Assembly (NCBI RefSeq): GCF_013408175.1 | Contig: NZ_JACBYW010000002.1 | Location: 496,001 to 560,000, forward strand | DNA: 64,000 nt | DNA from: Actinopolyspora biskrensis | GTDB lineage: Bacteria > Actinomycetota > Actinomycetes > Mycobacteriales > Pseudonocardiaceae | Reading direction: 5' to 3' | Shown: one piece after another, positions 577-18,986 of the stretch | Position numbering within the stretch: the first letter of the stretch is position 1 | Layout: each line of letters opens with the position of its first letter | The notes under the pieces: model-generated | The model's database searches: none | Told to the model about the DNA's origin: nothing | Seen by the model: the letters and a program-made list of their open reading frames with translations, nothing else | Program-made: the position numbers and the translations under genes

Positions 577-2013
577 GTGAGTCGAGCTGAGACCGGACCG
601 TCCTCGACGGAGGGGGAGGAGGAGGGCCACGCCCACCGCTGGCGCATTCTCGCGTTGTGCCTGCTGGCCGGGTTCATGACCTTGCTGGACGTCAGCATCG
701 TCAACGTCGCTCTGCCCTCCATCCAACAGGGTCTCGGAGCTCCGCACACCGCACTGTCCTGGGTGGTGTCCGGATATGCCCTGACGTTCGGGCTGGTGCT
801 GGTCCCCATGGGCAAGCTCGGCGACGTCCACGGTCGAGGCAGGATGTTCTTGATCGCGCTGGCCGCGTTCACCGCGGCCAGCGCCCTGGCCGGGATGGCG
901 GTCAGTCCGCTGTGGCTCGTGATCGCCCGCCTGCTGCAGGGCGCCGCGGGAGGGATGCTCAATCCGCAGGTGATCGGACTCATCCAACAGCAGTTCCACG
1001 GCCGGGAGCGCGGAACGGCGTTCGGGATGTTCGGCGCGGTCGTGGGGTTGTCGACCGCCGTCGGCCCCCTGCTGGGGGGTTTGATCATCGAACTCGCCGG
1101 TGCGCAGCACGGTTGGCGGTGGGTGTTCTTCGTCAATCTGCCCATCGGTTTGGCCGCACTCGCGATGGCCTTCCGGATCATGCCCCGGGCGACCGGTTCT
1201 CGGGAGCTGCGCGGTGCCGACATACCCGGGGTGCTGCTGCTGGGAACCGGGGTGGTCTGTCTGCTGCTGCCCCTGGTCGACCGAGAGGGGGTCGGGGAGT
1301 GGAGCTGGCTGCTGTGGAGCGCAGCCCCGGTCCTGCTGCTGCTCTTCGTCGTGTGGGAGCACCGCTACACCAGGAAGGACGGCTCCCCGCTGATCGACCT
1401 GAGGTTGTTCCGGATCAGCAGCTTCACGTTCGGCTCGACCCTCGGGATGCTGTACTTCGCGGGCTTCACCGGCATTTTCTTCGTGCTGGCCGTGTACTTC
1501 CAGCGCGGATTGGAGTACTCCGCGCTGCAGGCAGGACTCGCCCTGACCCCGTTCGCGGTGGGATCGGCGCTTTCCTCGGCCCTCAGCGGGCGGGTCGTAC
1601 ACAAACTGGGGCGGAGCGTGGTGCTGCTCGGGTTGAGCGGGGCACTGCTCGGCCTGTTGGCCACGGAGCTGCTGTTGGCCCGTGATCCCGGGCGCTCCGC
1701 CGGGTTGATCACGGCGTTGCCGCTGCTGGTCGCCGGTGTGGGCAGCGGTATGGTCATCTCGCCGAACCAGACCGTTACTCTCAGTCAGGTGGAGGTGTCC
1801 CGCGGAGGGACCGCGGCGGGAGTGCAGCAGACCGGGCAGCGGATCGGTACCGCCATCGGTACCGCCACGGCTTCCGGGCTGTTCTTCGCGCAGTTGCCCG
1901 GCGACTACGATGCGGCGATCTCCCACGGCCTGGTGGCCTCGGTCTCCTTCGTCGGGGCCGCGCTGGCGGTCGGTGTGGTCGAGCTGGTACTGGGACCGCG
2001 GTCGAGGCGATGA
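577..2013 (+). CDS. MFS drug exporter, DHA2 (EmrB/QacA) type, 14 membrane segments
   Basis: A 478-aa membrane protein of the usual size for the proton-driven DHA2 exporters. After a short hydrophilic N-terminus the first helix carries the typical TLLDVSIVNVALPSIQ stretch. The loop after helix 2 has the MFS motif A (GKLGDVHGRGRM), and RLLQGAAGGML marks the helix 4 region. About 14 hydrophobic segments follow. The GTG at 577 is preceded by GGGG at 567-570, a suitable distance for a ribosome site. It converges on the PKS gene, with a perfect palindrome filling the gap. The family exports hydrophobic drugs or self-made antibiotics, so it could export the product of the neighbouring NRPS/PKS locus. 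That link rests on position only. Confidence 0.85.
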   Translation: MSRAETGPSSTEGEEEGHAHRWRILALCLLAGFMTLLDVSIVNVALPSIQQGLGAPHTALSWVVSGYALTFGLVLVPMGKLGDVHGRGRMFLIALAAFTAASALAGMAVSPLWLVIARLLQGAAGGMLNPQVIGLIQQQFHGRERGTAFGMFGAVVGLSTAVGPLLGGLIIELAGAQHGWRWVFFVNLPIGLAALAMAFRIMPRATGSRELRGADIPGVLLLGTGVVCLLLPLVDREGVGEWSWLLWSAAPVLLLLFVVWEHRYTRKDGSPLIDLRLFRISSFTFGSTLGMLYFAGFTGIFFVLAVYFQRGLEYSALQAGLALTPFAVGSALSSALSGRVVHKLGRSVVLLGLSGALLGLLATELLLARDPGRSAGLITALPLLVAGVGSGMVISPNQTVTLSQVEVSRGGTAAGVQQTGQRIGTAIGTATASGLFFAQLPGDYDAAISHGLVASVSFVGAALAVGVVELVLGPRSRR

Positions 2014-2057
2014 CCGGTGCGCGGGTACGGACACGCGTGTCCGTACCCGCGCACCGG
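2014..2057. terminator. 44-bp perfect palindrome, probable bidirectional terminator
   Basis: Two 22-nt arms meet with no loop at 2035/2036. The left arm begins CCGGTGCGCGGG and the right arm mirrors it exactly. The palindrome begins right after the exporter stop and ends three bases before the PKS stop on the other strand, so it serves both convergent genes. There is no T-tract, which is common for actinomycete terminators. Confidence 0.75.
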
Positions 2058-2060
2058 CGG

Positions 2061-5000
2061 TCACGTTTCGGTTCCGCGTGGCATGTGCTCGACGAGCAGC
2101 CGTGCCAGCTCCTCCACATGGGGGGAGCGCAACATCGAATAGTGATCTCCGGGGGAGTTCGCTATCCGCATGGTGGGAGCGACCGTCCGCCAGGAAAGCT
2201 CCGGTCGCTCGTGTTCCTTCGCCGCTTCTTCGGTGGCCCGTACGTACAGCAGTCGACCCTGGTGGGTGGGAGACTCCGATGGTTCGTACTCGTGTAGAGC
2301 CGTCGTGTGATGCCGATGAAGCCGGTACAGTCCTTCGCGGACTTCGGAGGGTGCCTCCTGCTCCCCGGGGAGTCCCGTGTGAGTGTCGGTTTCCTCCAGG
2401 GGGACGTCGGGCGGCCACGGAGAGTCGATCAGTACGGTGAGCGCTGGAGGGGTCCCGCCGCGTTCCAGCACACGAGCCATCTCGAAGGCCACCACTCCTC
2501 CGAAGGAGGACCCTCCGAGACAGAACTCGGAACCGGACAGTTCATCCACGAGTTCCTCGGCGTAGGCGTGCGCCATATCGACGATTCCACTCCGTGGGGT
2601 CGCGTCACTGCCGTGGAAGCCGCGTGCGGTGAAGCCACGTACGGAGCACGATGACCGGAGGCACTCGGACAGCTCGCGGTAGACCAATGTTCCTCCCCCG
2701 ATCGGATGCACGAGATAGAGCGGCGGACACGGCAGGGACCGCGGCTCCGGATGATCGTGCAGTGTTGTCAGATGTCCGGGGGAGGAACAGGGCTTTTCCC
2801 GGGGACTCTTCGCCATCTCCGCGGAGAGCCCCCGAGGGGTGGGGGTGCGTAGCATGTCCTGCGGCCGGATCTCGGTACCGAGTTCCTCGTTGACGGCGGA
2901 GGAGAGCTGAACGGCCATGAGGGAGTCGCCGCCGAGAGCGAAGAAATCGTCCTCAGGCGAGATCCCGGAAACGTCCAGTACCCGTTCCCAGATCCGAACC
3001 AGACGTGCTGGTGCGTCCTCGCTATCAGGTCGCGCGAGTTCGGCTTCCGTGCTTCGTGGAGGGGCGGTTCGTGCGGCGGCATGCTCGGATGACCGTCCGA
3101 CCCAGTGCACGGTGCGTTCGAATGGGTGAGGCGGTAGCGGGACTTTGCTGGCTCCGTGTTCCTGTTGTAGAGTCGCACGGTTCACGTTGACTCCGTGTTC
3201 CCAGAGCTTTCCCACACTCTCCAACAGCCGGCGATAGGGCGGAGTCGCTTCCTCCGCCCCTCCCAGGGTGGGAAGTACCCGGCTCGTAGAAGCGGTGGCG
3301 GGATGCCTGGACGCCCAGGAGCCCATCGTGCGGCCGGGGCCGACCTCCAGCAGCAACGAGTGATCCGTGCTCGCCAGCGCGGCGAGGTCCTCGTCGAGAC
3401 GAACCGTCATTCTCAGCTGCCGCACCCAGTGCTCCGGGTCGGTGGCTTCCTCCGCGGTGACCCAGGTTCCGGTGACGTTCGAGAGGTATGGAACACGGGG
3501 AGGGGAGAGGTCCAGCGTTCCCACGAAATCGCCGAACTCCTCCAGAATCGGATCGAGCTCGGCTGAGTGTCCCGCGTACCTCACGGGAACGATCTGGCAC
3601 CCCGTTCCCCCGGTCTCCAGTTCTTCCCGAAGCTCCCGAACATCGTCCTCCGGTCCGGAGACCAACGAGCGATCCGGGCCTATCTCGGCGGCGACCGTGG
3701 TGTTCCGGTTCAACCTGCCGTGAAGTTCCGCCCCGGACATCGCAACACTGAGCATGGCCCCCGGAGGCAGGGAGTCCAACAACGATCCTCTGCGGGCGGC
3801 CAACCGGAGGCCGTCCCGGAGGCCGAGCACTCCCGACACACAGGCGGCAACGCATTCTCCGAGGCTGTGACCGAGCAACGCGTCCGGAACCACCCCCCAA
3901 TGCGCCAGCAGCTCGGTGAGCGCGTATTCCACGGCGAAGACCGCGGGCATGGCCAGCGAAGTACGGCGCAGTTCCTCGTGGGAGCCCGCCGGAGCCCCGG
4001 GAACGGGATGTAACAGTTCACCGAGGTCCTTGCCAAGGACCGGTAGGAGAATCCGGCGGCATCGATCCAGCTCGGTCCGGAACACCGGCTCGTGAGCACA
4101 GAGCTCCGAGGTCATGCCTGCCCGAAGGGAGCCGGGCCCGGGAAGGAGGAAGGCCGTGCCCGGATTCGGTGTGGCCGAGCGCTGATTCCTGTCTTCGATC
4201 CTCCGCAACGCCCCGCGAGCTTCCGAAACATCGTCGGCCACCGTGGACCAGCGTTGCGTGAACTCACCACGTCCGGTGAGCAGAGTCCGTCCCGCCGAGG
4301 GCAGCGAAACGTCCGGGAGCACCTCGGCTGTGTGCGTTCCCAGGCGGGACAAGGAGGCCCGGTCCCGCGCGGACAGCAGTAACGGTTGGTGGGGACGGGA
4401 CCGTTCCTCGTCCTCGAGCTCGGGAGCCTGCTCCAGCACCACGTGCGCATTGGTTCCTCCGATCCCGAAGGAACTGACCGCCGCCCGTCTGGGATGTCCC
4501 GGAGAGGACCACTGTTCGGCGGTGCCGGGCAGCCGGAACGGGCCGTCGTCTTCGGACAACTCCTCGTTCGGCTCGGTGCACAGCGCCGGTGGAATCGTCC
4601 GGTGACGGAGGCTCAGCGCTGTTTTGATCAGCCCCGCGACGCCTGCGGCGACGTCGAGGTGGCCGATGTTGGCCTTCAAGGTTCCCAGGGGCCAGGTCTC
4701 CCCGGGGACGGATTCCGTCCGGAGGGCACGGCGAAGGGCCGCGAGTTCCATGGAGTCCCCGAGCGGCGTGGCCGTTCCGTGCGTTTCCACGTAGCCGACC
4801 CCGGTGGGCTCCACTCCGGCACGTTCGTGTGCGGCGGTGATCACCTTGACCTGTCCGTCGATCGCGGGGGCCGTGTAGGAGAGCTTCCCCCCGCCGTCGT
4901 TGTTCACGGCCGATCCCTTGATCACGGCGTGGATATGGTCGCGATCGGCCACTGCGTCCGAGACTCGTTTGAGCAGCACCACTCCGGCTCCGCTCGACGG

Positions 5001-5714
5001 CACCGTTCCGCTCGCCTCCGCGGAGAAAGGACGACAACGGCCGTCAGGAGAGAGAATCCCCCCGGGTTCGTGGAGATAGCCGACCCGATGCGGTACCCGG
5101 ACGGAAGCTCCTCCCGCGAGTACAGCGTCGCTGTCCCCGTGCAGCAGGCTCTGTACGGCCAAATGCACGTTCACGAGCGAGGTGGAGCAGGCGCTCTGGG
5201 CAGTTATCGCCGGTCCGCGCAGATTCAAGCGATGGGAGATCCTGGTGGCGGCGAAATCCTTGTCGGAGGTGATCAGCCTGAGCGTGTCCTCCGCCCTTCC
5301 GAGGTTGAACGGGGATTCGTTTCCCTCCAGCAGGAGGTAGGAGGAAGCCCCGACACCGACGAACACCCCGACGTCCCCGGGAAAGGAGTCCGGAGGACAG
5401 CCCCCGCTCTCCAGTGCTTCCCAGCAGCATTCCAGCAGGACTCGTTGCTGGGGGTCCAGCAGGTCGGCCTCTCGTTTGCCGATGCCGAAGAAACCGGAAT
5501 CGAACAACTCCACACCGTCCAGCACCCCGGCGCGGGGAACGTAGTTACGCAGGTCCGTAACCTCCGGCCCGACCCCCGCGGTGTGGGTCTCGTCCACGGT
5601 GAGCGCGGACAGCAGCTCTCTTCGTTGTTCCACGGCCGACCACAGCAGGTCGGGAGAAGAAGCTCCGGGGAAGCGTCCGGCCATGCCGACGATCGCTATG
5701 TCCTCGTGCATCAT
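2061..5714 (-). CDS. Type I polyketide synthase module: KS-AT-ACP-thioesterase, no reductive domains
   Basis: A 1217-aa single-module synthase. The KS domain (about 1-430) has the active Cys176 in QSACSTS, His312 in HGTATPLGD and His352 in KANIGHLD. The AT domain (about 515-810) has Ser617 in GHSLGE and His716 in YAGHS. GHSLG favours malonyl-CoA over methylmalonyl-CoA, but YAGHS matches neither the usual malonyl motif (HAFHS) nor the methylmalonyl motif (YASHS). The ACP (about 900-965) has Ser931 in LGGDSL. A type I thioesterase (about 995-1210) has Ser1070 in GSSFG, Asp1097 and His1191. With no KR, DH or ER, the added unit should stay a beta-keto group. The gene overlaps the upstream A-PCP gene by ATGA and has AAGGAG before its ATG, so the two are translationally coupled. 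The KS therefore probably takes a peptidyl chain from that carrier protein, and the TE releases or cyclises it. Confidence 0.9.
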   Translation of the reverse strand: MMHEDIAIVGMAGRFPGASSPDLLWSAVEQRRELLSALTVDETHTAGVGPEVTDLRNYVPRAGVLDGVELFDSGFFGIGKREADLLDPQQRVLLECCWEALESGGCPPDSFPGDVGVFVGVGASSYLLLEGNESPFNLGRAEDTLRLITSDKDFAATRISHRLNLRGPAITAQSACSTSLVNVHLAVQSLLHGDSDAVLAGGASVRVPHRVGYLHEPGGILSPDGRCRPFSAEASGTVPSSGAGVVLLKRVSDAVADRDHIHAVIKGSAVNNDGGGKLSYTAPAIDGQVKVITAAHERAGVEPTGVGYVETHGTATPLGDSMELAALRRALRTESVPGETWPLGTLKANIGHLDVAAGVAGLIKTALSLRHRTIPPALCTEPNEELSEDDGPFRLPGTAEQWSSPGHPRRAAVSSFGIGGTNAHVVLEQAPELEDEERSRPHQPLLLSARDRASLSRLGTHTAEVLPDVSLPSAGRTLLTGRGEFTQRWSTVADDVSEARGALRRIEDRNQRSATPNPGTAFLLPGPGSLRAGMTSELCAHEPVFRTELDRCRRILLPVLGKDLGELLHPVPGAPAGSHEELRRTSLAMPAVFAVEYALTELLAHWGVVPDALLGHSLGECVAACVSGVLGLRDGLRLAARRGSLLDSLPPGAMLSVAMSGAELHGRLNRNTTVAAEIGPDRSLVSGPEDDVRELREELETGGTGCQIVPVRYAGHSAELDPILEEFGDFVGTLDLSPPRVPYLSNVTGTWVTAEEATDPEHWVRQLRMTVRLDEDLAALASTDHSLLLEVGPGRTMGSWASRHPATASTSRVLPTLGGAEEATPPYRRLLESVGKLWEHGVNVNRATLQQEHGASKVPLPPHPFERTVHWVGRSSEHAAARTAPPRSTEAELARPDSEDAPARLVRIWERVLDVSGISPEDDFFALGGDSLMAVQLSSAVNEELGTEIRPQDMLRTPTPRGLSAEMAKSPREKPCSSPGHLTTLHDHPEPRSLPCPPLYLVHPIGGGTLVYRELSECLRSSCSVRGFTARGFHGSDATPRSGIVDMAHAYAEELVDELSGSEFCLGGSSFGGVVAFEMARVLERGGTPPALTVLIDSPWPPDVPLEETDTHTGLPGEQEAPSEVREGLYRLHRHHTTALHEYEPSESPTHQGRLLYVRATEEAAKEHERPELSWRTVAPTMRIANSPGDHYSMLRSPHVEELARLLVEHMPRGTET

Positions 5715-7576
5715 GACTCCTTCTCCGGAACGTGGTGGTGCAGCAGTGCTCCCAGAGCGCGGGGGGTCGGGTTCTCCAGCAGGTCCAGCAGGGTGATGCT
5801 CGTGTAGCCCTGGGTGTGGAGTTCGGCGCGTACCTTCAACAGCAGCATCGAGTTACCGCCCACTTCGAAGAAGCCGTCCTCGGGGCCGAACTCGTCGCTC
5901 CGGAGGACCTTCTCCCAGACCCGCAGCACCGCCCGTTCGTGAGGACTCGTCTCTTCCGCCGCGGCGACCGGTTCCGTGTGCTCGGGGAGCGGTTCGGGCA
6001 GTGCGCTGCGGTCGAGTTTCCCGTTGGGCAGCTCGGGGAATCCCTCCAGCACCGCGATGCGCCCGGGAATCATGTGGCGGGGAATCCGCTTCAGCAGCAG
6101 TTTCCGCACCAGCGGGGCCACAGAGTCGTCCGCGTCGTCCGTGGATATCCAGGCGACCAGGGACGGTGTTCCTTCGGAGGGGTCGGTCCGGACATCGGCC
6201 AGTGCGTCGTTGACGATCCGCAGCTCGCGCAATGCAGCCTCGACCTCACCGAGCTCGAGACGGTTCCCGTGAATCTTCACTTGGCGGTCCTGCCGACCGA
6301 GGAACTCGATCGCTCCGTCCGTTCTGCTTCGTGCGAGATCTCCGGTCCGGTAGAGCCGATCTCCGGGAGGGTCGGCGCGCGGATCGGGCAGGAAGCGTTC
6401 CGCCGTGGTCGCCGGGCGGTTGAGATAGCCGCGGGCGAGCTGCGGACCGCCGAGGAATAGCTCGCCCCGCTCTCCTCGCGGGACTTCGTCGAGTGTGTCC
6501 GGATCCAGCACGCGAGCACGTGTGTGTCCTAGGGCAGCTCCGATCGGTACCCGGGACCGTTCGGTGTCGGCCGGACCGCAACGGTGGGTGAGGGTTGCCA
6601 CTGCGGCCTCCGTCGGCCCGTATGCGTTGATCACTTCCGCCTTCGGCAGCCGCCTCCGGCACTCCCGCAGCAGTTCTACCGGGAGATCCTCGCCCACGGT
6701 GAACACACGTCTCAGTGAGCCACCCCGGAAGGTATCGAGTTCGCGCAGGAAATAGGGGAGCTGTGTCGGAACGAAGGTGATGTCCGTTACGCCCTGCTCC
6801 TCCACCGTCTCGGCAAGGTCGGCGGGGTCCTGGTGCCCCTCGGGATCGGCGAGCACCAAACGTGCTCCGGACAGCAGTGGCCAGAACATCTCCAGTACGG
6901 AGACGTCGAAACCGAACGGAGTTTTGACCAGAACCCTCGAATCCCCGCTCAACGGGAACTCGTATTCCATCCAGCGCAGCATTTCGACGACCGAACCGTG
7001 GGTGTTGACCACTCCCTTGGGTTTGCCGGTCGAGCCGGAGGTGTACATCGCGTACAGCGCGTTGTCGGTGGACAGCATGGGGAGTTCGGCTTCGCTCCCG
7101 GTGTCGGGAGCGGATGATTCGTTGATGTCGACCACCACCGGATTTCCGGGGTCCCGGCCACCGGAGAGCTCCGCCAGGGGAGTGGCCCGCGGGCCCCGCA
7201 CCACTCCGGACGGAGCGGAGTCCTCGTATATCTCCGCCAACCGGGGGGACGGATAAGCGGGGTCCAGTGGAACATAGACTCCTCCGGCCCCGACGATTCC
7301 CAGGGTTGCGATCACCAGCTCCGGACAACGACACATGTTGACGCCGACCAGCTGCTCCGGTCCGATACCCGCCGACAGCAGCCGCCGGCTCAACCGCGTG
7401 ATCCGCTCTGCCAGCTGTCCGTAGGTGAGTTCTTCCCGACGTGTCGCCACGGCGACTGCCTCCGGAGCGCTCGCCGCCCGGTTCAGCACCGCTTCGTGCA
7501 GCAATTCCGGAGCTCCTGATGTCCCTGGACGATTCGCTATGACATCGGTGGTTTTTCCGGTTTTCTTCGACTTCAT
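5711..7576 (-). CDS. Stand-alone NRPS module: adenylation domain plus peptidyl carrier protein
   Basis: A 621-aa protein with an A domain (about 15-515) showing YTSGSTGKPKG, the FDVSV core, NAYGPTE, YRTGD and NGKLDR, then a carrier domain with the phosphopantetheine Ser in VGGNSM, and a short tail. It has no condensation domain, so the upstream C domain must come from another protein; the A-PCP-C protein encoded at 8453 ends in one. Aligned to GrsA, the specificity residues read D-V-L-T-F-V-A-V-A-K. I cannot assign that code. Leu at the third position, where Trp is common, is unusual. An in-frame start exists at 7609, but the ATG at 7576 is chosen because GGGAGGAG lies eight bases upstream. 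It is the first gene of the leftward two-gene operon. Confidence 0.9.
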   Translation of the reverse strand: MKSKKTGKTTDVIANRPGTSGAPELLHEAVLNRAASAPEAVAVATRREELTYGQLAERITRLSRRLLSAGIGPEQLVGVNMCRCPELVIATLGIVGAGGVYVPLDPAYPSPRLAEIYEDSAPSGVVRGPRATPLAELSGGRDPGNPVVVDINESSAPDTGSEAELPMLSTDNALYAMYTSGSTGKPKGVVNTHGSVVEMLRWMEYEFPLSGDSRVLVKTPFGFDVSVLEMFWPLLSGARLVLADPEGHQDPADLAETVEEQGVTDITFVPTQLPYFLRELDTFRGGSLRRVFTVGEDLPVELLRECRRRLPKAEVINAYGPTEAAVATLTHRCGPADTERSRVPIGAALGHTRARVLDPDTLDEVPRGERGELFLGGPQLARGYLNRPATTAERFLPDPRADPPGDRLYRTGDLARSRTDGAIEFLGRQDRQVKIHGNRLELGEVEAALRELRIVNDALADVRTDPSEGTPSLVAWISTDDADDSVAPLVRKLLLKRIPRHMIPGRIAVLEGFPELPNGKLDRSALPEPLPEHTEPVAAAEETSPHERAVLRVWEKVLRSDEFGPEDGFFEVGGNSMLLLKVRAELHTQGYTSITLLDLLENPTPRALGALLHHHVPEKES

Positions 7577-7737
7577 GTGCCGTTCTCCTCCCAGCCGGTC
7601 CTCGACCACGGTGCGAGAGAGGGACTCGTGCGGAGAAGATCCCGTTCCGCTGTGCGGAACGAAAGCGTGAGAAGTGGCGAACCGCCGTATAGGTTGACGA
7701 ATGAACAGTTCTTCCGTGCTGGAAAGCGAGAACGAAG
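7577..7737. promoter_or_regulatory. Divergent promoter region of the NRPS/PKS locus
   Basis: This 161-bp gap separates the leftward A-PCP/PKS operon from the rightward orphan/A-PCP-C/MbtH operon, so both sets of promoters must lie here. A TTGACG hexamer at 7694-7699 could be a rightward -35 element, but no convincing -10 follows at the right distance. I see no clear operator. Confidence 0.5.
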
Positions 7738-8421
7738 ATGAACGGTCCCGATCACGAAAACCGGTTCTCCGATGGTTTCCCCCTGTGCCAGGAGGTTCTC
7801 GGCGAGCTGGACCCCCCGTTGAACGGTTACGACAACGAATTTGCTCGCTTGGTCGGTTCCGGTGACGTGGAAAACACGCACTATTCCAGGTTGGTCCGCT
7901 ATCTGGACCTGTCGTTGGACACGCAGGTGGCAGGATACGCCTCCGGGGTCGCTCGGTTTCCTCGCAAGACGGCGGCGGCTCCTTTTATGGAATTCGCAGA
8001 AATAAAGCTGAACGCGCGGGTCCTGATGCGCAGGGCTATTTCCGCGATCGGGGGTGAGGTGGAGCCCGAGGGGACTGTCGCCCTTCCCTTCGACGCCTAC
8101 AGTATGCCCTGGTACTTCCTCTGGCTGGGTACTATGGGGAACAGGGCTCAGTCCGGGTTGGGGGCCTATGCCGGAATGCTGGTTTGGCACCATGTCTGTG
8201 TTTCGCTCGTGGAGCGACTGTCGACCCTGGAAAACCCTCCACCGGAGGATTTCACCGTGATTTTCAGGAGATTCGAGGAGGCTCCGGAGCGGATGCTGCG
8301 AGTATGTCTGGAGGCGGCGGAAGAAGGGTTGCACGCGGGTGACGACCAGCGTGCTGCTCTGGTGTCCGCGCGGTTGGCCGAAATCAGTTTACTGCGCTTC
8401 ATGTCCGCCCCCGTGCAGTGA
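7738..8421 (+). CDS. Unrecognised 227-aa protein, first gene of the rightward NRPS operon
   Basis: I do not recognise this family. The protein is probably soluble and looks largely helical. Features that could matter are an acidic/aromatic N-terminal half, SMPWYFLWLG near residues 122-131, a His pair in VWHHVC near residue 150, and a charged C-terminal helix rich in Glu and Arg. There is no signal peptide, no nucleotide-binding loop and no known cofactor motif. It lies 31 bases upstream of the NRPS start and on the same strand, so it is very likely co-transcribed with it. Its position makes a tailoring, release or self-protection role possible. A compact helical enzyme of haem-oxygenase-like fold could be imagined, but the usual ligand pattern is not evident. 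Confidence 0.7.
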   Translation: MNGPDHENRFSDGFPLCQEVLGELDPPLNGYDNEFARLVGSGDVENTHYSRLVRYLDLSLDTQVAGYASGVARFPRKTAAAPFMEFAEIKLNARVLMRRAISAIGGEVEPEGTVALPFDAYSMPWYFLWLGTMGNRAQSGLGAYAGMLVWHHVCVSLVERLSTLENPPPEDFTVIFRRFEEAPERMLRVCLEAAEEGLHAGDDQRAALVSARLAEISLLRFMSAPVQ

Positions 8422-8452
8422 GCCGGACGATTCTGGCGGGAGGGAAGAGATC

Positions 8453-11400
8453 GTGTCGACGAGTTGGCGTCCGCTGCATTGTGAGTTCGAGCTTTGGGCG
8501 GCCGAGTACCCCGATCGCATCGCTGTCACCGAGGAGAGCGGATCCGTTTCCTACGGCGAGCTGAACCGGATGGCCAACAGGCTCGCCCACCGACTCTCAC
8601 GTGCGGGGGCGGGACCGGGACGCCTGGTTGGTGTCCTGGCCGAACGCGGTAGTGGTCTGATCACGGCACTGCTCGCCGTGCTCAAGACCGCGAGTGGTTA
8701 TGTCCCCCTCGATCCTGTCCACCCTCCGCAGCGGATCCGGTGGTTGATCGAGGAGTGCGGAACGGGTCTGGTGGTGGGGTCGAATCGATATCGGGACACG
8801 GTTCGGGAGGACCGGACGGAATTCGTGCCTCTGGACGATCGCGACCTTCTGGCGGAGGACGAGCACGATCCGAACACGGTTCCCGGTCCGGGCTCTTCCA
8901 TGTATGTGATCCACACTTCGGGGTCGACCGGAAAACCCAAGGGGGTGGACGTCCCGCACTCGAATCCGGTGCGGCTCTTCGCGCACACCCGGGACAAAAT
9001 GGGGATCACCTCCTCGGACGTCTGGACGGCTTTCCACTCGCACGCCTTCGATTTCTCGGTCTGGGAAATGTGGGGAGCACTCGCTCACGGGGGACGCCTG
9101 GTGATCGTGCCGCACGAATTAACCCGTGACCCGGAGCTTTTCTGGGCACAGCTGTTGCGCGAGCGGGTTACCGTGCTCAACCAGACCCCCACTGCCTTCG
9201 CACGTTTGATCGATGCGGCGCTTCGGGAGGGTTTTCCCCAGAACGCGCTGCGGCTGGTCGTTTTCGGAGGAGAAGAGCTCACTCCGGAGCTGCTGGGGCC
9301 CTGGTTCGAGGCTTATGGTGATGAGCGTCCGCGACTGGTGAACATGTACGGGATCACCGAAGCGACCGTTCACGTAACCTTCCGCCCGCTCGACGTGCAC
9401 GACGTCGAAGCCTCGGAGAGCCCCCTCGGGACTCCGCTCGATGACCTGGTACTGAGACTGCTCGACCAGGAACTCCGACCCGTGCAGTGCGGAGAGACCG
9501 GGGAGTTGTACGTGGGTGGAGAGGGAATCGCGCGCGGCTACTTGGGACGACCAGCGCTGACGGCGGAGCGGTTCCTTCCGGATCCCTACGGCTCCCCGGG
9601 AAGCCGGCTGTACAGAACGGGGGATCTGGCCCGGAGACGACCGGACGGCGACCTGGTGTTCCGGGGAAGAGCGGACCGGCAGGTCCAGTTGCGCGGGTTC
9701 CGGGTGGAACCCGGTGAGATCGAAACCGCTCTGAGGGAACTTCTCGAAGTTTCGAGGGCCGCGGTGGTGGCACGCGAGGATCCCCGTGGGGACCTCGCTC
9801 TGATCGGTTATGTGGTTCCGGCCGAAGGGGTCGGAATCGAACCGCGCGAAGTTCGGTCCCGTCTGTCCCGACGGCTGCCGTCCTACATGCTGCCCACCGC
9901 CGTGCTCACGGTCGACAGTCTTCCCATGACGGTTCAGCACAAGTTGGACGTGGACGCGCTGCCGTTGCCGTGGTCCGGCGCGGGAAAACCGCCGAGTTCG
10001 GGGGGTCTCGGTGACCACGACGCGTCCACAAGGGCTCTGGCCGAAGTGATGGCCGAGGTGCTGGACCTTTCCGCGGTGGACCCGGACGACGACTTCTTCG
10101 CTCTCGGTGGTGATTCCATTCGCGCGGCTCGATTGGTGGGGCTCGCGAGACAGCGAGGGGTGGAGTTGGGCGTCACAGATGTCTACACTCGCCCCACGGC
10201 CCGACGGTTGACAACGAGTGATCCCCTTCCCGCCCCAGGGGATGGCTCCCTCGCGGAGGAGAGCACGAAGACCCCCGCACTCTCCAGTGGTCAGCAGGGG
10301 ATTCTCTATGAGTGCGAGCTGATCGACGATCCGACCCTGTACAGGGTGCTCGTCGCGGTACAGCTGAGCGGACGTATGGATGTCGCCGCGCTGAAGAGGG
10401 CGTTGGCGGACATGGTGGAACGTCACGAGGTGCTCAACGGGTTCTTCGAGCTCGACGAACAGGGGACGTTCCGGTGGTGTGCTTCCCCGTGCCCCCGCAT
10501 CCCGGTGTCGGTTTCATTCGGTGTGGGGCGAGGAGAGGACTTCCGCGCGCGCCTGGTCCGGGAATGGGAGAGGAAGTGGTCCGGACACGTCACACGGGAT
10601 CGAGCCCCACCGTTGCACTGCCACGTACTTCCACGGTTCGACGGGGACTGGTATCTGGCACTGGTCGTGCACCACGCTTTGCTCGACGGATGGAGCACGG
10701 CCGTCCTGGGGACGGAACTGTTGCACAGCTACCGGGTGCACATCGGGGAGACGGAGGAACAGCTGCCAGAGGTGTTCTCACCGAGTCCCTGGGAACACGT
10801 CGAGAGAGAACGAAGAGCTGGGAAGGACGAGCGGACCCGTCATTTCTGGGAGCAACGTCTGCCCCGGCTCGATCCCGGCCCTCCGCCTCCGGGAGGCGGT
10901 GATGTCGGAACCGCTGGTTCCCCTGCGGAGGCGGCGATGGAACTGGACTCGGCCACTGACGGCACCGTGCGAAGCATAGCCGCCCGTCTCTCGGTTCCTC
11001 CGAAAACCGTTTACCTGGCTGCGGGGTTGTGGGTAACGGCGGCGTTGACGGGACATCCGAGCCCGGTGATCGGTACCGCCACCCACATGCGTCCGGAAAG
11101 TCGGGACGGCGACCGGCTTCTGGGGATGTTCCTCAACGTGCTCCCCGTTGGGGTGTCTCTCGCGGAGAGCACCAGATGGGAGGAATTGATCTGCGAGGTT
11201 TTCGAGCAGGAGGTGTCGTTGCTGCCCCACCGCTGGATGCCGCTGGCGGATCTGGTTTCCAGGAAGGGAAGCGATTTGTTCCACGTTGTGCTCAATTACA
11301 CTGACTTCCGCGTTCTGGGTGGTTCGGATGGGGTCGATCCTCGTGAGCGCGGTTGGACTTTCGTGAACAGGACCAACTTCCCCCTGTTTATCGAGGTGCA

Positions 11401-11572
11401 GCACGGCCCGATCGATGACTCCACCGTCGTGACCGCACGATCCGGTATGACCTCTTCCGTGTCGCTGTCCACTGTGCGAAAGGCGCAGAGGCTGATGCGT
11501 GAGGCGCTTTTTTCGATATTTTCGGATCCCGAGGGGGAGATTCCCGAGGTACCCAGCTCGGGCGAGCACTGA
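8453..11572 (+). CDS. NRPS module A-PCP-C, adenylation domain predicted threonine-specific
   Basis: A 1039-aa protein with three domains in the order adenylation (about 1-510), carrier (about 520-590, Ser in LGGDSI) and condensation (about 610-1030, HHALLDG matching HHxxxDG). The A domain has HTSGSTGKPKG, FDFSVWE, YGITE and YRTGD. Aligned to GrsA the code reads D-F-W-N-V-G-M-V-H-K, one conservative change from the known threonine code DFWNIGMVHK. No condensation or acyl-loading domain precedes it, so it looks like the starter module with a free amino group. Its C-terminal C domain would pass threonine to the A-PCP protein encoded on the other strand. The start is the GTG at 8453, preceded by GGGAGGGAAGAG. 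An upstream in-frame start at 8339 would lie inside the preceding gene and is rejected. Confidence 0.92.
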   Translation: MSTSWRPLHCEFELWAAEYPDRIAVTEESGSVSYGELNRMANRLAHRLSRAGAGPGRLVGVLAERGSGLITALLAVLKTASGYVPLDPVHPPQRIRWLIEECGTGLVVGSNRYRDTVREDRTEFVPLDDRDLLAEDEHDPNTVPGPGSSMYVIHTSGSTGKPKGVDVPHSNPVRLFAHTRDKMGITSSDVWTAFHSHAFDFSVWEMWGALAHGGRLVIVPHELTRDPELFWAQLLRERVTVLNQTPTAFARLIDAALREGFPQNALRLVVFGGEELTPELLGPWFEAYGDERPRLVNMYGITEATVHVTFRPLDVHDVEASESPLGTPLDDLVLRLLDQELRPVQCGETGELYVGGEGIARGYLGRPALTAERFLPDPYGSPGSRLYRTGDLARRRPDGDLVFRGRADRQVQLRGFRVEPGEIETALRELLEVSRAAVVAREDPRGDLALIGYVVPAEGVGIEPREVRSRLSRRLPSYMLPTAVLTVDSLPMTVQHKLDVDALPLPWSGAGKPPSSGGLGDHDASTRALAEVMAEVLDLSAVDPDDDFFALGGDSIRAARLVGLARQRGVELGVTDVYTRPTARRLTTSDPLPAPGDGSLAEESTKTPALSSGQQGILYECELIDDPTLYRVLVAVQLSGRMDVAALKRALADMVERHEVLNGFFELDEQGTFRWCASPCPRIPVSVSFGVGRGEDFRARLVREWERKWSGHVTRDRAPPLHCHVLPRFDGDWYLALVVHHALLDGWSTAVLGTELLHSYRVHIGETEEQLPEVFSPSPWEHVERERRAGKDERTRHFWEQRLPRLDPGPPPPGGGDVGTAGSPAEAAMELDSATDGTVRSIAARLSVPPKTVYLAAGLWVTAALTGHPSPVIGTATHMRPESRDGDRLLGMFLNVLPVGVSLAESTRWEELICEVFEQEVSLLPHRWMPLADLVSRKGSDLFHVVLNYTDFRVLGGSDGVDPRERGWTFVNRTNFPLFIEVQHGPIDDSTVVTARSGMTSSVSLSTVRKAQRLMREALFSIFSDPEGEIPEVPSSGEH

Positions 11573-11587
11573 TCGAGAGGATGAACC

Positions 11588-11776
11588 GTGTCGGATTATT
11601 CTGCCGGACAGCGTTATTTGGTGGTCGTCAACAACCGGGGCCAGCACTCCATCTGGAGATGCGATCGACGGGTTCCCCCGGGATGGATGTCCGCGAGTTT
11701 CGACGGAACCAGGGAAGAGTGTTTGGACTACATCGATCGTTCCTGGGCTGACATGAGGTCTCCCCGGTCTGCTTGA
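11588..11776 (+). CDS. MbtH-like NRPS accessory protein (short form)
   Basis: A 62-aa protein with the MbtH core: YLVVVNNRGQHSIW, then VPPGW, then ECLDYIDRSWADMR, keeping the conserved tryptophans. MbtH proteins bind adenylation domains and help them fold and activate amino acids, so its partners should be the two A domains here. It lacks the usual NPFDD-type N-terminus and begins SDYSAGQRY instead, which makes it shorter than most. The GTG at 11588 is preceded by GAGAGGA and lies 15 bases after the NRPS stop, so it is translated from the same mRNA. An ATG at 11581 is out of frame. Confidence 0.9.
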   Translation: MSDYSAGQRYLVVVNNRGQHSIWRCDRRVPPGWMSASFDGTREECLDYIDRSWADMRSPRSA

Positions 11777-11809
11777 GCGCGATCGTGCCGGTCGAAACAT
11801 TCCTGAAGA

Positions 11810-11853
11810 GCCCGGAGCGGTTCCGTACCCGCTCGCCGGAACCGTCTCCGGGC
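11810..11853. terminator. Hairpin terminator between MbtH-like gene and katE
   Basis: Arms GCCCGGAGCGGTTCC (11810-11824) and GGAACCGTCTCCGGGC (11838-11853) pair over about 15 bp with a one-base bulge and a 13-nt loop. It sits between convergent genes and marks the right edge of the NRPS locus. Confidence 0.65.
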
Positions 11854-11884
11854 CATAGGTGTGTACTTCTTCACCATCAGTCGT

Positions 11885-13999
11885 TCAGGCGGGAATGCCC
11901 GCGGTGTCCCTGCTCCACACCCGGTGGCCCGCGAGTGTCTCGGCGAAGTCGGAGAGGAAGCCCCAGGGCAGTGATCCGCCGGTCTCCGCGACCGTGACCA
12001 CTCCGCTGTCGGTGACCACGTCCTGCCCCTCGGCGTACCTCACGTCGATGCCCGCTTTGCGAAGCAGTGTCGTGCCCTCCCCGCTCGCGGCGACCGGTTT
12101 GGCGTGCTTGTAGGCCTCGGCCGCGAAGTGCACGGCATAGCCGTCCGCGTTCAGGGTCTCGACGCTCGCGGAGCCTCCCGGCACGACCACGGCGTCGTAG
12201 AGCACCGAAGCCACCGTGTTGACGGCCCTGTCCACGGGGACCTCGGTGGAGTTGGAGGACTGCAGCGTTCCCTCCCGCGGAGCCAGTATCTCCGCGACGG
12301 CGCTCCGCTCGGCGAGGTAGCGACGTATCTGGTCGACCTCTTCGGCGTGCACCCCGTCGGCAGCCAGCAGCGCCACTTTCCTGGTCGCGATGGAGTCGGT
12401 CGCCGAGTTCGCCTGACTCAGCGCGGGAGAGCTTCCTCCGTGGTTGGTGACCGCGGGGGAAGCGGGAGGGGTCACGCCGATTCCGGTGGCCACGCGGGTC
12501 GCCAGATCGTGGTCGACATGGTTCAGGTGGTCGACCGTGCGTTCCCGTATGTGCTTGTGCTCCACCTTGTTCAGCTCGAAGCGGAAAGCGGCGACGATGT
12601 GCTCCTGCTCCCAGACGGCCATGCTGTTCCAGAAAAGCGTCGCCTGGCTGTAGTGGTCCTGGAAGCTCTCGCTGCGTTTGCGGATCTTGGAGCCCTCGAC
12701 CTTTTCCTGGTAATGGGAGAAAGCGCCGTTGTCGGTTCCGGCCAGGGCGGGGCACCCCCCGGATATGCTGTTGTCGTAGTAGCTGGTTTGCCCCCGGTGG
12801 ATGCGCATCTGGTTGAAGCCGTCCCGCTGGTTGTTGCTCACTTCGGCGACCGGGCGGTTGATCGGTATTTGCGCGAAGTTCGGCCCACCGAGCCGGATGA
12901 GCTGCGTGTCCAGGTAGGAGAAATTGCGCGCCTGCAGCAGGGGATCGTTCGTGAAGTCGATTCCGGGGACCACGTTCGCCGTGTGGAAGGCGATCTGCTC
13001 CGTTTCGGCGAAGAAGTTGTCCGGATTCTTGTCCAGAGCCATCTTGCCGACCGGCTGCACGGGAACCTGCTCCTCCGGGATTATTTTGGTCGGGTCCAGC
13101 AGGTCGAAGTCGAAGTCGAACTCCTTCGACTCGTCGACGAGTTGCACACCGAGTTCCCACTCGGGGTAGTTGCCGGCCGCGATGGCCTCCCAGAGGTCTC
13201 CGCGGTTGAAATCGGGGTCCTTGCCCGCGGCCTTCTGGGCCTCGTCCCACACCAGCGAGTGCGTGCCCAGGACCGGTTTCCAGTGGAACTTGACGAAGGT
13301 TCCCCTGCCCGCCGAGTTGACCAGGCGGAAGGTGTGCACCCCGAAGCCCTGCATCATGCGGTAGCTGCGCGGAATGGCGCGGTCCGACATCAGCCACATC
13401 ATCATGTGCATGGTCTCGGGCTGCAGCGAGACGAAGTCCCACAGCGTGTCGTGGGCCGAGGCGCCCTGGGGGATCTCGTTGTGCGGTTCCGGCTTGACGG
13501 CGTGCACGAAGTCGGGGAATTTTATCCCGTCCTGGATGAAGAAGACGGGCATGTTGTTGCCGACCAGGTCGTAGTTCCCCCGGTCGGTGTAGAACTTCGT
13601 GGCGAATCCGCGTACGTCGCGCACGGTGTCGTTGGATCCCCTGGAGCCCTGAACCGTCGAGAAGCGGACGAAAACCGGTGTCCTCTTCTGCGGGTCGGTC
13701 AGGAAGTCGGCGGTGGTGTAGTCGGCCAGCCAGTCGTCGTACGGCCGGAAATGCCCGTACGCCCCGGAGCCCCTGGCGTGTACGACCCGCTCGGGAATTC
13801 GTTCGTGGTCGAAGTGAGTGATCTTCTCCCTGGCGTGGAAGTCCTCCAGCAGGGTCGGGCCACGTTCGCCGACCGTCACCGAGTCGTCGGTGTGGTCCAC
13901 CCGGACGCCCTGCTGAGTGGTCAGGTAGCTGTCGTGCGGATCCTCGCGGACGTGGTCGAGCTGGCTCTGCTTGTCGTCCTGTTGATCCTGTGACGCCAT
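11885..13999 (-). CDS. katE: Large-subunit catalase (HPII/KatE type) with C-terminal flavodoxin-like domain
   Basis: A 704-aa haem catalase of clade 2, which breaks hydrogen peroxide down to water and oxygen. The distal His74 lies in [11 protein letters not shown] and Asn148 in [10 protein letters not shown]. The haem-ligand Tyr lies in [13 protein letters not shown]. The long C-terminal part (from about residue 550) has the fold seen in class I glutaminases/PfpI proteins, with [10 protein letters not shown] and VVPGG segments; in HPII enzymes it stabilises the tetramer. The ATG at 13999 is preceded by GGAGGTAACC, a strong ribosome site. It is monocistronic, with no OxyR- or FurA-type neighbour. 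Confidence 0.95.
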
Positions 14000-14205
14000 G
14001 GTTACCTCCGAACGCGGACAGTCTGCGTCGGCAGGGTTCCCGGTTGGCTCACCGACTATGCGTGCTCGTTCGGATTCGTTCCGTTCGTTGCCCCGTTCGC
14101 GTTCCGCGCCAGCCGGTCGCGCGGGTCCGGGACGGAACGCGCCGTGCCCGGGAGAACCGGTAAGGACTTCGCCCGGTGCGAGGGCGACCGGTTCCCGACG
14201 AGGGG

Positions 14206-14239
14206 ACGGCGTGCCCCGGAGCGGACCGGGACACGCCGT
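14206..14239. terminator. Hairpin downstream of the GH20 gene
   Basis: Arms ACGGCGTGCCCCGG (14206-14219) and CCGGGACACGCCGT (14226-14239) pair over 14 bp with one mismatch and a 6-nt loop, 22 bases beyond the stop of the leftward gene. The rest of 14000-14260 carries only the katE leader. Confidence 0.6.
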
Positions 14240-14260
14240 GCGGGGGTCTTCGCCGCTCGA

Positions 14261-15907
14261 TCAGTCCTCGGGCCAGGGGATCTGTTCCGAACGGTAGAAA
14301 TCGATGCCCTGCTCCTGCCAGCTCGCCGCCTGACCGGCCAGGCGTTCCCGGAAGGAGGACCAGTCGTGCTTGGACTGCGGGGACCATCCCAGCTCGGCGA
14401 TCGCGGGCAGCCGGGGGAAGGCCATGAACTCGATCTCGTTCGACGTGGTCAGCGTTTCGCTCCACAGCGGAGCCTCGACTCCGGCGATCGCCTCTTCGGG
14501 AACCGAGTTCATATGTGAGCCCGGACGCCAGTCGTAGGACTCGCGGACCGTGGTCGGCCCGGCCCAGTCCAGACCGAGCTCGGTCTCCTCGTTGTACTTC
14601 TGGTCCAGGTAACTCCTGTTGGCGGGGGAGAGCAGGATCTCGTTCCCGCGCTCGGCGGCTTTCGAGACCTCTTCGTTGGAGTTCGAGGTGCCCCAGTACT
14701 GCACCATCGCGTCCGAGGAGGGTTCGGCCTTGGCGTACTCGTGCCAGCCCAGCGGGGTCTTGCCGTACTTCTCCACGATCGGCAGCACTCGGGACATGAA
14801 GTGCCGGTAGCCCTCCTCGGTGGTCGAGTCGGCCTCGTCACCGCCGATGTGCAGGTACCGGCCGGGAGTCATCGCGGCCACCTCGCGGATGACGTCGTCG
14901 ACGAACCGGTAGGTGACCTCCTTGTCCACGCACAGCGAGCTGAAACCGACCTCGATGCCGGTGTAGAGCGGCGGTGCCTGCCCGTCGCAGTTCAGCTCGG
15001 CGTAGGAGGACAGTGCCGCGTTCGTGTGCCCGGGCAGGTCGATTTCGGGGACGATGGTGATGTTGCGCGTGCTCGCGTAGTCGACGATTTCGGCGTATTC
15101 CCGTTTGGTGTAGTAGCCGCCGTCACCACCACCGACCTCGGTGCTGCCCCCGTGGGTGGTCAGCTTGGGCCAGTCGTCGATCTGGATGCGCCAGCCCTGG
15201 TCGTCGGTCAGGTGCAGATGCAAGTAATTGATCTTGTACTGCGCGATCTGGTCGATGTAGCTTTTGACCTGCTCGACCTCGAAGAAGTGCCGTGCGACGT
15301 CCAACATCGCCGAGCGGTGCTCGAAGCGGGGCTTGTCCACTATCTCACCGGCCGGCACTTTCCACGGTCCGTGCCGTGGGGAACCGCTCTCGGCCTCGGC
15401 GGGCAACAGCTGCCGCAGGGTCTGGACTCCGTGGAACAGCCCCTCCGAGGTGGTCGCGTGGATCGTCAGCCGCTCCTTGTCCACGTCCATCCGGTAGCCG
15501 GAGTCACCGAGGCGCTGCTCGGATCCGTCCAAGCTCAGCACCATGTCGCCCCGCCCGGGGCTGCCCCGGTTTATCAGCAGTCCGTACCCCGTGGAGGGGC
15601 GTAACTGCTGTTGGAGGTAACGGGCCACGCGATCCGCTTCCGCGTTGCCGCGGGGTGCGTGGATACCGGTGTTCCACTTTACGCGGAATTTCGCGCCGCG
15701 CTCCGGTTCCACCGAGGTGGGGGCCGGGATCACGTCGCTCAGTGCGGAGGCGGTCTTGTCGGCGCCGTGGTCCTCCGCCTGGGGAGCGGAGGGCTGGGAA
15801 GCGGCGGCGGAGACGGTGCCGCAGGCCAGCGTCACAGTGGTGGCCAGGGCGAGCGCCGCCGGGAGTCTGCTGTACGGGCTCCGGGTGCTTTCCCGAGTGC
15901 GTTTCAT
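14261..15907 (-). CDS. Secreted GH20 beta-N-acetylhexosaminidase
   Basis: A 548-aa exported glycoside hydrolase that removes terminal GlcNAc, most likely from chitin oligomers. The N-terminus has basic residues, then a hydrophobic stretch (ALALATTVTLACGTVSAAA), a Sec signal with probable cleavage near ASQ; a Cys in it makes a poor lipobox. A GH20b-like domain at about 60-180 leads into the catalytic barrel, with LHLHLTDDQGWRIQI and the diagnostic HIGGDEAD, whose Asp-Glu pair is the substrate-assisted catalytic centre. An upstream TTG at 15955 is in frame but lies inside the operator, so the ATG at 15907 is preferred, with GAGAGG upstream. A DasR-like operator in the leader suggests control by GlcNAc-6-phosphate. 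Confidence 0.93.
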   Translation of the reverse strand: MKRTRESTRSPYSRLPAALALATTVTLACGTVSAAASQPSAPQAEDHGADKTASALSDVIPAPTSVEPERGAKFRVKWNTGIHAPRGNAEADRVARYLQQQLRPSTGYGLLINRGSPGRGDMVLSLDGSEQRLGDSGYRMDVDKERLTIHATTSEGLFHGVQTLRQLLPAEAESGSPRHGPWKVPAGEIVDKPRFEHRSAMLDVARHFFEVEQVKSYIDQIAQYKINYLHLHLTDDQGWRIQIDDWPKLTTHGGSTEVGGGDGGYYTKREYAEIVDYASTRNITIVPEIDLPGHTNAALSSYAELNCDGQAPPLYTGIEVGFSSLCVDKEVTYRFVDDVIREVAAMTPGRYLHIGGDEADSTTEEGYRHFMSRVLPIVEKYGKTPLGWHEYAKAEPSSDAMVQYWGTSNSNEEVSKAAERGNEILLSPANRSYLDQKYNEETELGLDWAGPTTVRESYDWRPGSHMNSVPEEAIAGVEAPLWSETLTTSNEIEFMAFPRLPAIAELGWSPQSKHDWSSFRERLAGQAASWQEQGIDFYRSEQIPWPED

Positions 15908-15941
15908 GCTGGTCTGTACCTCTCGTCGGAAACGGTGGAAT

Positions 15942-15955
15942 AAGGTATAGACCAA
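15942..15955. promoter_or_regulatory. DasR-like (dre) operator upstream of the hexosaminidase gene
   Basis: The sequence AAGGTATAGACCAA, read on the gene strand as TTGGTCTATACCTT, is close to the DasR/NagR-type GntR operator AGTGGTCTAGACCACT. The GGTCTAnACC core is intact with one base off symmetry. It lies 35-48 bases before the start codon, where a repressor would block transcription. DasR controls chitin and GlcNAc genes in streptomycetes, and the target fits. Confidence 0.75.
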
Positions 15956-16142
15956 AATTGCGGGTGGGGTATATCACCTGTTCGGAGTATGCGTGTTCCC
16001 GCGAAAGCACTCGGCCCCCGTCGCTGCGGGCAGCGACGGGGGCCGAGTGCGGCTGCTCGAGGCCGGGCACCCGCTCGAGGGAGGGGCGGTTGCACCGAGG
16101 TCCCGCGGCGGAGCCTTGCTCGACAACCGAGTTGACGGGTTC

Positions 16143-17891: not shown

Positions 17892-17950
17892 CCTTCCGTG
17901 TCGCTGTCAGAACGATTCGGAACCATAGCCAGAAATCGCTGAGATGTACA

Positions 17951-17967
17951 GATGTACTAGTTACATC
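17951..17967. promoter_or_regulatory. Inverted repeat, candidate operator of the symporter gene
   Basis: GATGTA (17951-17956) and TACATC (17962-17967) are perfect arms around CTAGT, and a further AGATGTAC copy at 17942-17949 repeats the left arm directly. It lies 60-76 bases upstream of the symporter start. No regulator gene is nearby. Confidence 0.45.
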
Positions 17968-18728: not shown

Positions 18729-18956
18729 ATGCGCGGTGACACATCAGCGGAATCGGGGTCGGACAACGGTGCCGACCCGGGGGCCACGGCCCTTCCCACC
18801 GCTCCTTGCTCCGTCGTGTGGAGTGGTGGTCACCCGTTCGTCCTCGAGGGCGTCGGGGGGCGTTCGCGCTGGGTCGGTGTGGACGACAAGGGGCGTCCGC
18901 GCTTTCTCAGCGACTCCGAACTCCAACGCAGGGGGTGGAGACTGCCCGCACGTTGA
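18729..18956 (+). CDS. Small hypothetical protein, 75 aa
   Basis: I do not recognise this family. After a disordered, Gly/Ser/Asp-rich N-terminal third, the C-terminal half looks like a small beta-fold: VVWSGGHPFVLEGV, then RWVGVDDKGRPRFLSDSELQRRGW. The second half has normal protein composition, which supports a real gene. GGAGG at 18713-18717 lies 11 bases before the ATG. An in-frame GTG at 18717 is an alternative start. The frame stays open upstream to 18432, but that part is low-complexity arginine-rich and not protein-like. A hairpin follows the stop. Confidence 0.5.
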   Translation: MRGDTSAESGSDNGADPGATALPTAPCSVVWSGGHPFVLEGVGGRSRWVGVDDKGRPRFLSDSELQRRGWRLPAR

Positions 18957-18967
18957 GGAGGCCGATT

Positions 18968-18986
18968 GGCCGGGTGATGCCCGGCC
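18968..18986 (+). terminator. Short GC hairpin after the small gene
   Basis: GGCCGGG (18968-18974) and CCCGGCC (18980-18986) pair around a 5-nt loop, 12 bases past the stop at 18956. Confidence 0.5.

Follow-up and report, generated by a model that had tools for sequence, protein, structure and literature searches.

Pyrazinones serve as signals in several bacteria (PMC10979472), and the enzymology of those substituted at C-5, a type to which butrepyrazinone from a Verrucosispora belongs (PMC12144821), has been called enigmatic (PMC10979478). The closest described system to the locus presented here is CorA, the coralinone synthetase of Corallococcus exiguus SDU70, a hybrid of nonribosomal peptide synthetase (NRPS) and polyketide synthase (PKS) with the domain string A-T-C-A-T-KS-AT-ACP-TE, which yields 5-methylpyrazinones; in the route proposed for it, a dipeptidyl beta-keto acid undergoes decarboxylation, cyclisation and oxidation, ring closure and oxidation being described as spontaneous (PMC10979478). 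Production of these compounds was demonstrated in E. coli, in vitro, and from CorA-PKS supplied with Leu-Val-SNAC (an N-acetylcysteamine thioester), and CorA-PKS also accepted methylmalonyl-CoA to give a 5-ethyl product (PMC10979478). The same source counts 110 cor-like clusters among myxobacteria, whose genes are split in various ways, and its available portions report none for actinomycetes; likewise, no actinobacterial CorA-type line was found in the literature naming coralinone (available portions of PMC12144821 and PMC12283262; other wording was not searched). Here we describe a five-gene block in a stretch of 64,000 nucleotides of Actinopolyspora biskrensis (contig NZ_JACBYW010000002.1, positions 496,001 to 560,000; hereafter the window), and we consider, with moderate confidence, that it encodes one NRPS-PKS line working like CorA and leading to a pyrazinone.

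The five genes form two divergent operons (Table 1), the reverse strand carrying A2-PCP followed by KS-AT-ACP-TE and the forward strand an orphan protein, A1-PCP-C and an MbtH-like protein. Read in biosynthetic order across both strands, as A1-PCP-C, A2-PCP and KS-AT-ACP-TE, the megasynthases sum up to A-T-C-A-T-KS-AT-ACP-TE, in the order A1-C-A2-KS. Pfam recognised the ketoacyl synthase (E 3.9e-66), acyltransferase (4e-44), carrier (1.8e-16) and thioesterase (1.2e-20) of the PKS, the AMP-binding (1.3e-86) and carrier (7.1e-10) domains of A2-PCP, and the AMP-binding (1.5e-77), carrier (7.3e-13) and condensation (2.1e-34) domains of A1-PCP-C, as well as the MbtH-like protein (PF03621, 2.4e-18, 65.7 bits against a curated cut-off of 27). 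Two matches are less firm: that of the AMP-binding_C subdomain of A2 falls below cut-off (0.015), and that of the C domain is partial, spanning profile positions 6-356 of 456. In the PKS, a script check found intact the KS motifs CSTS, THGT and NIGH, the TE motifs GSSFG and GDH and the ACP motif; the AT motif GHSLG, the carrier serines of both PCPs and the C motif HHALLDG were read from the translations. The block holds a single C and a single TE, and no KR, DH, ER, MT (methyltransferase) or E domain was found among its proteins (Pfam, E 0.1). Neither the block nor its five flanking genes contain a starter C, FAAL or acyl ligase by Pfam, a search confined to these genes, so the amine of the dipeptide is expected to stay free.

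The window thus shares with CorA the domain string, a line without starter C and without reduction, and the use of two amino acids and one ketide. It differs in that CorA is one protein of ~310 kDa and uses Leu/Met/Phe then Ile/Val, whereas the window has three proteins on two divergent operons and is predicted to use Thr then a second amino acid, X. The original prediction, made from the letters of the window, had already recognised the A-PCP-C, A-PCP and KS-AT-ACP-TE proteins with MbtH-like and orphan companions, a line complete only across both strands, and one C, one TE and no reductive or tailoring domains, all of which the Pfam and motif analyses confirm; its statement that no described pathway has this gene set is not borne out, CorA having exactly this string and having been reconstituted in vitro (PMC10979478).

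The pocket codes of the A domains were then compared between the window and its counterparts in two other genomes, one of the same genus (G002) and one of another genus in the same family (G556). The register was placed by hand on what we take to be the GrsA motifs, and the last code residue (Lys517) was assumed. By this reading A1 is predicted to load threonine: its code DFWNVGMVHK is common to the three clusters and identical to that of A1 in L134, a locus of antimycin-type layout (C-A-T-C-A-KR-T plus KS-AT-ACP-TE), and antimycin-type A1 takes threonine (PMC3869250). PMC12283262 lists DFWNIGMVHK for Thr and describes positions 278 and 299 of Thr codes as variable; DFWNVGMVHK itself is absent from its main text. 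Identity between the window A1 and two antimycin-type A1 domains is 50-52% (52% for that of L135, whose code was unreadable through misalignment and was not used). The A2 codes differ across the three clusters, with the hydrophobic DVLTFVAVAK in the window and DVWIFVAIVK and DVVFLITVVK in the other two. Among the frameworks compared, the closest are serine-type (DVWHxSLVDK), and since His278, Ser301, Leu322 and Asp331 of this type are replaced in A2, X is probably non-polar and probably differs between species.

From the domains, their order and the Thr code, we infer the following course of loading, extension, release and ring formation. A1-PCP-C would load Thr and A2-PCP would load X, the MbtH-like protein assisting adenylation, and the C domain would join both into H2N-Thr-X-S-PCP. 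The KS would accept this chain and AT-ACP would add one malonyl or methylmalonyl unit; this single ketide being left unreduced, the second carboxyl would become a ketone. The TE would then release a dipeptidyl beta-keto acid, loss of CO2 would give an aminoacyl aminoketone, and condensation of the Thr amine with the ketone followed by oxidation would lead to a 3-(1-hydroxyethyl)-5-methyl (or 5-ethyl)-6-alkyl pyrazin-2(1H)-one, the orphan, distantly TenA-like, possibly aiding ring closure or oxidation or acting on the Thr-derived part. A 3-(1-hydroxyethyl)-5,6-dialkyl pyrazin-2(1H)-one is therefore our best prediction of the product. Aureusimine synthetase AusA and the minimal A-T-R NRPSs likewise bring a free amine and a C-terminal carbonyl together in a pyrazinone or pyrazine, but their carbonyl comes from a reductase domain and that of the window from a PKS module. 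The ichizinones and JBIR-56 of Streptomyces are also actinobacterial trisubstituted pyrazinones; they arise from an NRPS-made tetrapeptide that includes a beta-amino acid, and their third ring substituent is carboxyl-derived, whereas the one predicted here is a PKS-derived alkyl (PMC12144821). Threonine as first residue had been anticipated by the original prediction and agrees with the antimycin-type code, and one unreduced ketide with TE release as a beta-keto acid able to lose CO2 finds its precedent in CorA; among the products that it listed, this acid with CO2 loss stands, a pyrrolidine-2,4-dione is possible with less support, and the pyrazinone indicated by CorA was missing.

The block is conserved as one unit. 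All five genes are found in G002 in identical order and orientation, with identities of 55% (PKS), 56% (A2-PCP), 57% (orphan), 52% (A1-PCP-C) and 46% (MbtH); the MFS (major facilitator superfamily), catalase and hexosaminidase genes that flank the block in the window were not found in the surrounding 19 kb. In G556, A1-PCP-C is again divergent to A2-PCP and KS-AT-ACP-TE (identities: KS 56%, AT 41%, TE 43%, A1 53%, A2 43%), and the 54 kb examined yielded no MbtH. The recurrence of the two-strand layout in these two genomes argues that the two strands belong together. A further observation concerns G556, where the unit of orphan plus A1 is duplicated (L172:1866-2555, 8394-10621): the orphan copy directly before A1-PCP-C has lost ~50 middle residues, and the intact one (37% identical to that of the window) sits with a second, stand-alone A1-like domain of code DFWCMGMVHK. 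The 79 loci related to the PKS alone hold generic hybrid modules only, and when searched by tblastn with the window domains they returned neither an orphan nor a second copy of the set.

Phylogenetic trees were built from the KS (55 rows: ten chosen proteins plus top matches from these 79 loci, each 380 residues or longer) and the TE (16 rows). The window, G002 and G556 form one clade in both (100/99 for KS, 100/100 for TE). Their KS clade adjoins, with weak support (80/55), L199, a CorA-like Corallococcus gene, and L132, and not AntD, the antimycin-type KSs standing elsewhere (96/93). L132 (G344, of the same class) encodes at 11986-19236 a single A-PCP-C-PCP-KS-AT-ACP-TE protein without a second A domain, no further A domain being found in the 40 kb examined; its KS and TE group with the Corallococcus protein (100/98 and 100/99).

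Several points weigh against the CorA-like reading. L199 stands in the trees for CorA itself and is CorA-like by architecture only; the grouping of the window KS with this row has support of only 80/55, and the window TE lies outside the L199-L132 clade and apart from the antimycin-type TEs too, sharing an open fork with two other TEs (82/83). CorA needs neither a TenA-like partner nor MbtH, while the window block has both. CorA also has a corB peptidase nearby, common among cor-like clusters though the product does not require it, and no corB-like peptidase was found among the five genes that flank the block. The A2 code is unfamiliar and different in all three clusters, and as AT motif the window and G002 have YAGH, G556 RAMH; YAGH presumably is not the usual malonyl motif, which makes a methylmalonyl extender possible. 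By architecture, the proposal that the line works like CorA is well supported; the KS and TE trees do not establish descent from a CorA-type line.

The alternative outcomes differ mainly in what happens at release. Attack of the amide nitrogen of X on the beta-keto thioester, either TE-catalysed or spontaneous, would close a five-membered ring and give an N-threonyl pyrrolidine-2,4-dione (tetramate) as in the althiomycin-type methoxypyrrolinones, an outcome that we regard as unlikely. The terminal modules Alb5/AlmB of althiomycin do resemble the window, the last NRPS module, for Gly, being followed by a non-reducing malonyl PKS module with TE, and closure there is assigned to the TE or to an accessory hydrolase (PMC3445576); methoxypyrrolinones are known from Streptomyces too, as chalkophomycin, whose PKS lacks a TE (PMC11085572). 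Althiomycin, however, comes from a six-module line with an O-methyltransferase and an N-oxygenase, and no methyltransferase, present as O-methyltransferase in methoxypyrrolinone clusters, was found in the block (Pfam). Moreover, it is the pyrazinone that has a proven precedent with the same domain string, and a similar free-amine intermediate gave pyrazinones (PMC10979478). A linear aminoketone or beta-keto acid as end product, such as a peptidyl ketone protease inhibitor, is in our view distinctly unlikely: TE hydrolysis and decarboxylation are indeed the proposed first steps of CorA, but a free amine would face a ketone at a distance of two residues, an arrangement for which the CorA work describes spontaneous closure and oxidation (PMC10979478), and an amine cap is encoded nowhere in the block.

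The antimycin line offers another comparison, since AntC/AntD share with the window Thr first, KS-AT-ACP-TE last, the module order Thr - X - KS-AT-ACP-TE and the A1 code (L134). As the TE of AntD closes a macrolactone by attack of the Thr hydroxyl (PMC3869250, PMC6117356), the window TE might form a nine-membered lactone-lactam in place of the dilactone, and by atom count the ring size would fit. We nevertheless hold this to be very unlikely. Antimycin differs from the window by a starter C with aminosalicylate, a KR in module 2, a pyruvate-type A2 and a separate ketoreductase; A2 of the window retains the Asp235 of amino-acid A domains, which A2 of L134 in the same alignment does not; and the window TE matches AntD-type TEs over 104-105 residues only (36-38 bits), these TEs and the corresponding KSs falling in other clades. 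Membership of the antimycin type itself was rejected: the Thr-type A1 is there, the KR with alpha-keto-acid A2 and the starter C with 3-aminosalicylate genes are not. At the block, no 3-aminosalicylate or further biosynthetic gene was found, and the sole C domain follows A1. The chance that the strands stem from unrelated pathways, a doubt raised with the original prediction, or that the block is decayed and silent, appears slight in the extreme; the low third-position GC described below speaks for a foreign origin, but the two-strand layout is kept in two other genomes at 37-57% identity, the reading frames and motifs are intact, and both operons lie inside one insertion. The CorA-like pyrazinone line accordingly remains our preferred reading.

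This insertion is visible by comparison with three sister species (G005, G001 and G006) in which the site is empty. The gap between the MFS and catalase genes is 9,877 bases in the window versus 264, 255 and 279 in these species, and DNA alignment to them stops at ~2000 and restarts at ~11,880. In the six other genomes of the genus, the MFS gene is present and the catalase has no close match (best 43%). Third-position GC is 0.65-0.76 in the cassette versus 0.87-0.88 in the flanking genes, which shows the block to be of foreign origin. Judging from these comparisons, the five-gene block is a self-contained, horizontally inserted cassette in the host genome (G000, 4.95 Mb in 15 contigs). The 16S gene of this genome shows 84% identity over 1,345 positions to that of Streptomonospora nanhaiensis (Actinomycetota), the single match among eight named genomes; two complete myxobacterial genomes in that set gave no match, and the five other records may be without a 16S gene. 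The cassette is flanked on the left by BCCT and MFS transporters and on the right by a catalase, a hexosaminidase and a sodium symporter (Pfam), with no transposase, integrase or peptidase found among these five genes. The block itself encodes no exporter or regulator, and the MFS gene (577-2013, Pfam MFS_1) was rejected as exporter of the cluster: it has a counterpart in 10 of the 10 genus genomes and adjoins the catalase in the three species without the block. The catalase at the insertion site (11885-13999) is of a long form, with close counterparts in 4 of these 10 genomes (G000, G005, G001 and G006; 88-100%).

Table 1. Features of the inserted block in the window and the evidence for each
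Feature	Coordinates	Strand	Evidence
Inserted cassette, boundaries approximate	2014..11884		Absent from three sister species
KS-AT-ACP-TE PKS module, 1217 aa	2061..5714	-	Pfam, motifs, G002/G556 counterparts
A2-PCP, 632 aa	5711..7609	-	Pfam, pocket code, G002/G556 counterparts
Divergent intergenic region	7610..7737		Sequence
Orphan protein, 227 aa, distant TenA/THI-4/PqqC-like	7738..8421	+	Family profile, counterparts in G002/G556
A1-PCP-C	8453..11572	+	Pfam, pocket code; start from sequence resembling a ribosome-binding site and G002 gene
MbtH-like protein, 62 aa, short N-terminus	11588..11776	+	Pfam, G002 counterpart (also short)

Some details of the layout complete this description. The last bases of A2-PCP overlap the PKS start by 4. 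The A1-PCP-C gene probably starts at GTG 8453, preceded by GGGAGGGAAG, which resembles a ribosome-binding site, rather than at 8339, from where the annotated reading frame ran; the later start agrees with the G002 gene. A 19-bp inverted repeat, CGTTCCGC-TGT-GCGGAACG, lies at 7643-7661 in the divergent promoter region and is a possible operator for a regulator encoded outside the block. The MFS and PKS genes converge on a 46-bp near-perfect palindrome (2013..2058), which begins at the MFS stop codon, lies at the left border of the insert and is perhaps a bidirectional terminator.

The orphan protein had no family match in Pfam (E 0.1), NCBIfam or PHROGs, and only a profile of its family makes it distant kin of TenA/THI-4/PqqC. 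This profile of ten rows matches true TenA with 89% probability (E 2e-6, 199 columns), and TENA_THI-4 (PF03070, cut-off 22) matches one member of the family at 48.5 bits; the two results are not independent because that member sits in the profile. Among solved structures, the best TenA match had an E of only 0.27, and an unrelated chain ranked ahead of it (0.03). Across seven aligned members, the invariant columns are N33, R73, A93, W129, L141, C154, P169, L198 and G201, without the His/Glu/Asp set that would bind metal, and a haem-oxygenase-like di-iron enzyme was found unsupported. Cys154 is kept in 15 of 16 aligned rows, true TenA being the exception; the alignments place the TenA Pro-Cys, which we take to hold the TenA catalytic Cys, several residues before it, and the structure model, built without an alignment, is poor (mean predicted local distance difference test score 43).

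Matches to the orphan among the genomes searched, in sets that overlap and with at most 7 candidates scored per genome for class and family, were as follows: 6 of 100 relatives at E 0.001; 4 of 10 genus genomes at 0.001, two of them (G000, G002) below 1e-100; 3 of 394 class genomes at 1e-5, the close match being only the window's own; and 18 of 390 family genomes at 1e-6, with three (G000, G002, G556) below 1e-40. A plasmid search found nothing. Fifteen neighbourhoods of 19-20 kb (the window, L092-L100 and L172-L176), covering 16 of the 32 distinct places that these genome searches returned, were analysed, the first nine loci being all those from the search of 100 relatives and the last five picked from the class and family searches. 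The NRPS-PKS cassette occurs in three (the window, L092 and L172), and an A-PCP-R NRPS in six, directly adjacent to the orphan in L099, L173 and L174 and within ~5 kb in L093, L094 and L097, this being a raw count, uncorrected for background. L173:14110-17853 (G594) encodes an A-PCP-R protein with the orphan domain fused to its C-terminus (residues ~1030-1247; E 1e-7 against the window orphan and 1e-23 against L175). Counting against a link with such lines, the remaining 6 of 15 (L095, L096, L098, L100, L175 and L176) hold no NRPS A domain; of the orphan matches, that in L100 is the weakest (9.3e-4).

The amino aldehydes released by A-T-R enzymes lead to pyrazines (PMC7586950), and these neighbourhoods suggest that the orphan family serves amino-carbonyl (pyrazine/pyrazinone) lines. 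As the chemistry shared would be an alpha-amino carbonyl, we propose, tentatively and as a minority expectation, that the orphan represents an unnamed TenA-like family dedicated to NRPS lines releasing alpha-amino aldehydes or ketones; its substrate would be the free amino-carbonyl compound or the dihydropyrazine/dihydropyrazinone derived from it, and its reaction ring closure or a PqqC-like O2-dependent aromatisation, steps that would then be enzyme-controlled and not spontaneous as in CorA. Other features were noted in these neighbourhoods. L173 also holds a second, separate orphan copy with a second A-PCP-R gene nearby, and the tail of the A-PCP-R protein of L174:10654-14526 looks similar by eye to the fused domain. 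Within the genus, L097 (G000:C1:1124501-1144000), L094 and L095 share the orphan, an amine-oxidase-like flavoenzyme and a HisA/HisF-like protein; L097 additionally has a zinc-binding dehydrogenase, a second flavoenzyme and its A-PCP-R NRPS, and L095 lacks the A-PCP-R gene that L094 has too. This shared neighbourhood looks like an undescribed biosynthetic cluster, present also in the genome that contains the window.

Compared with the described systems, the novelty lies in the host phylum, in a split and mobile format that starts with threonine and varies in its second residue, and in the TenA-like partner. If the CorA-like reading is true, the assembly of ketone-type pyrazinones would extend from myxobacteria to actinobacteria, in a split, mobile form that is specific for Thr and differs in its second residue from species to species, and the unnamed TenA-like family would gain its first functional context.

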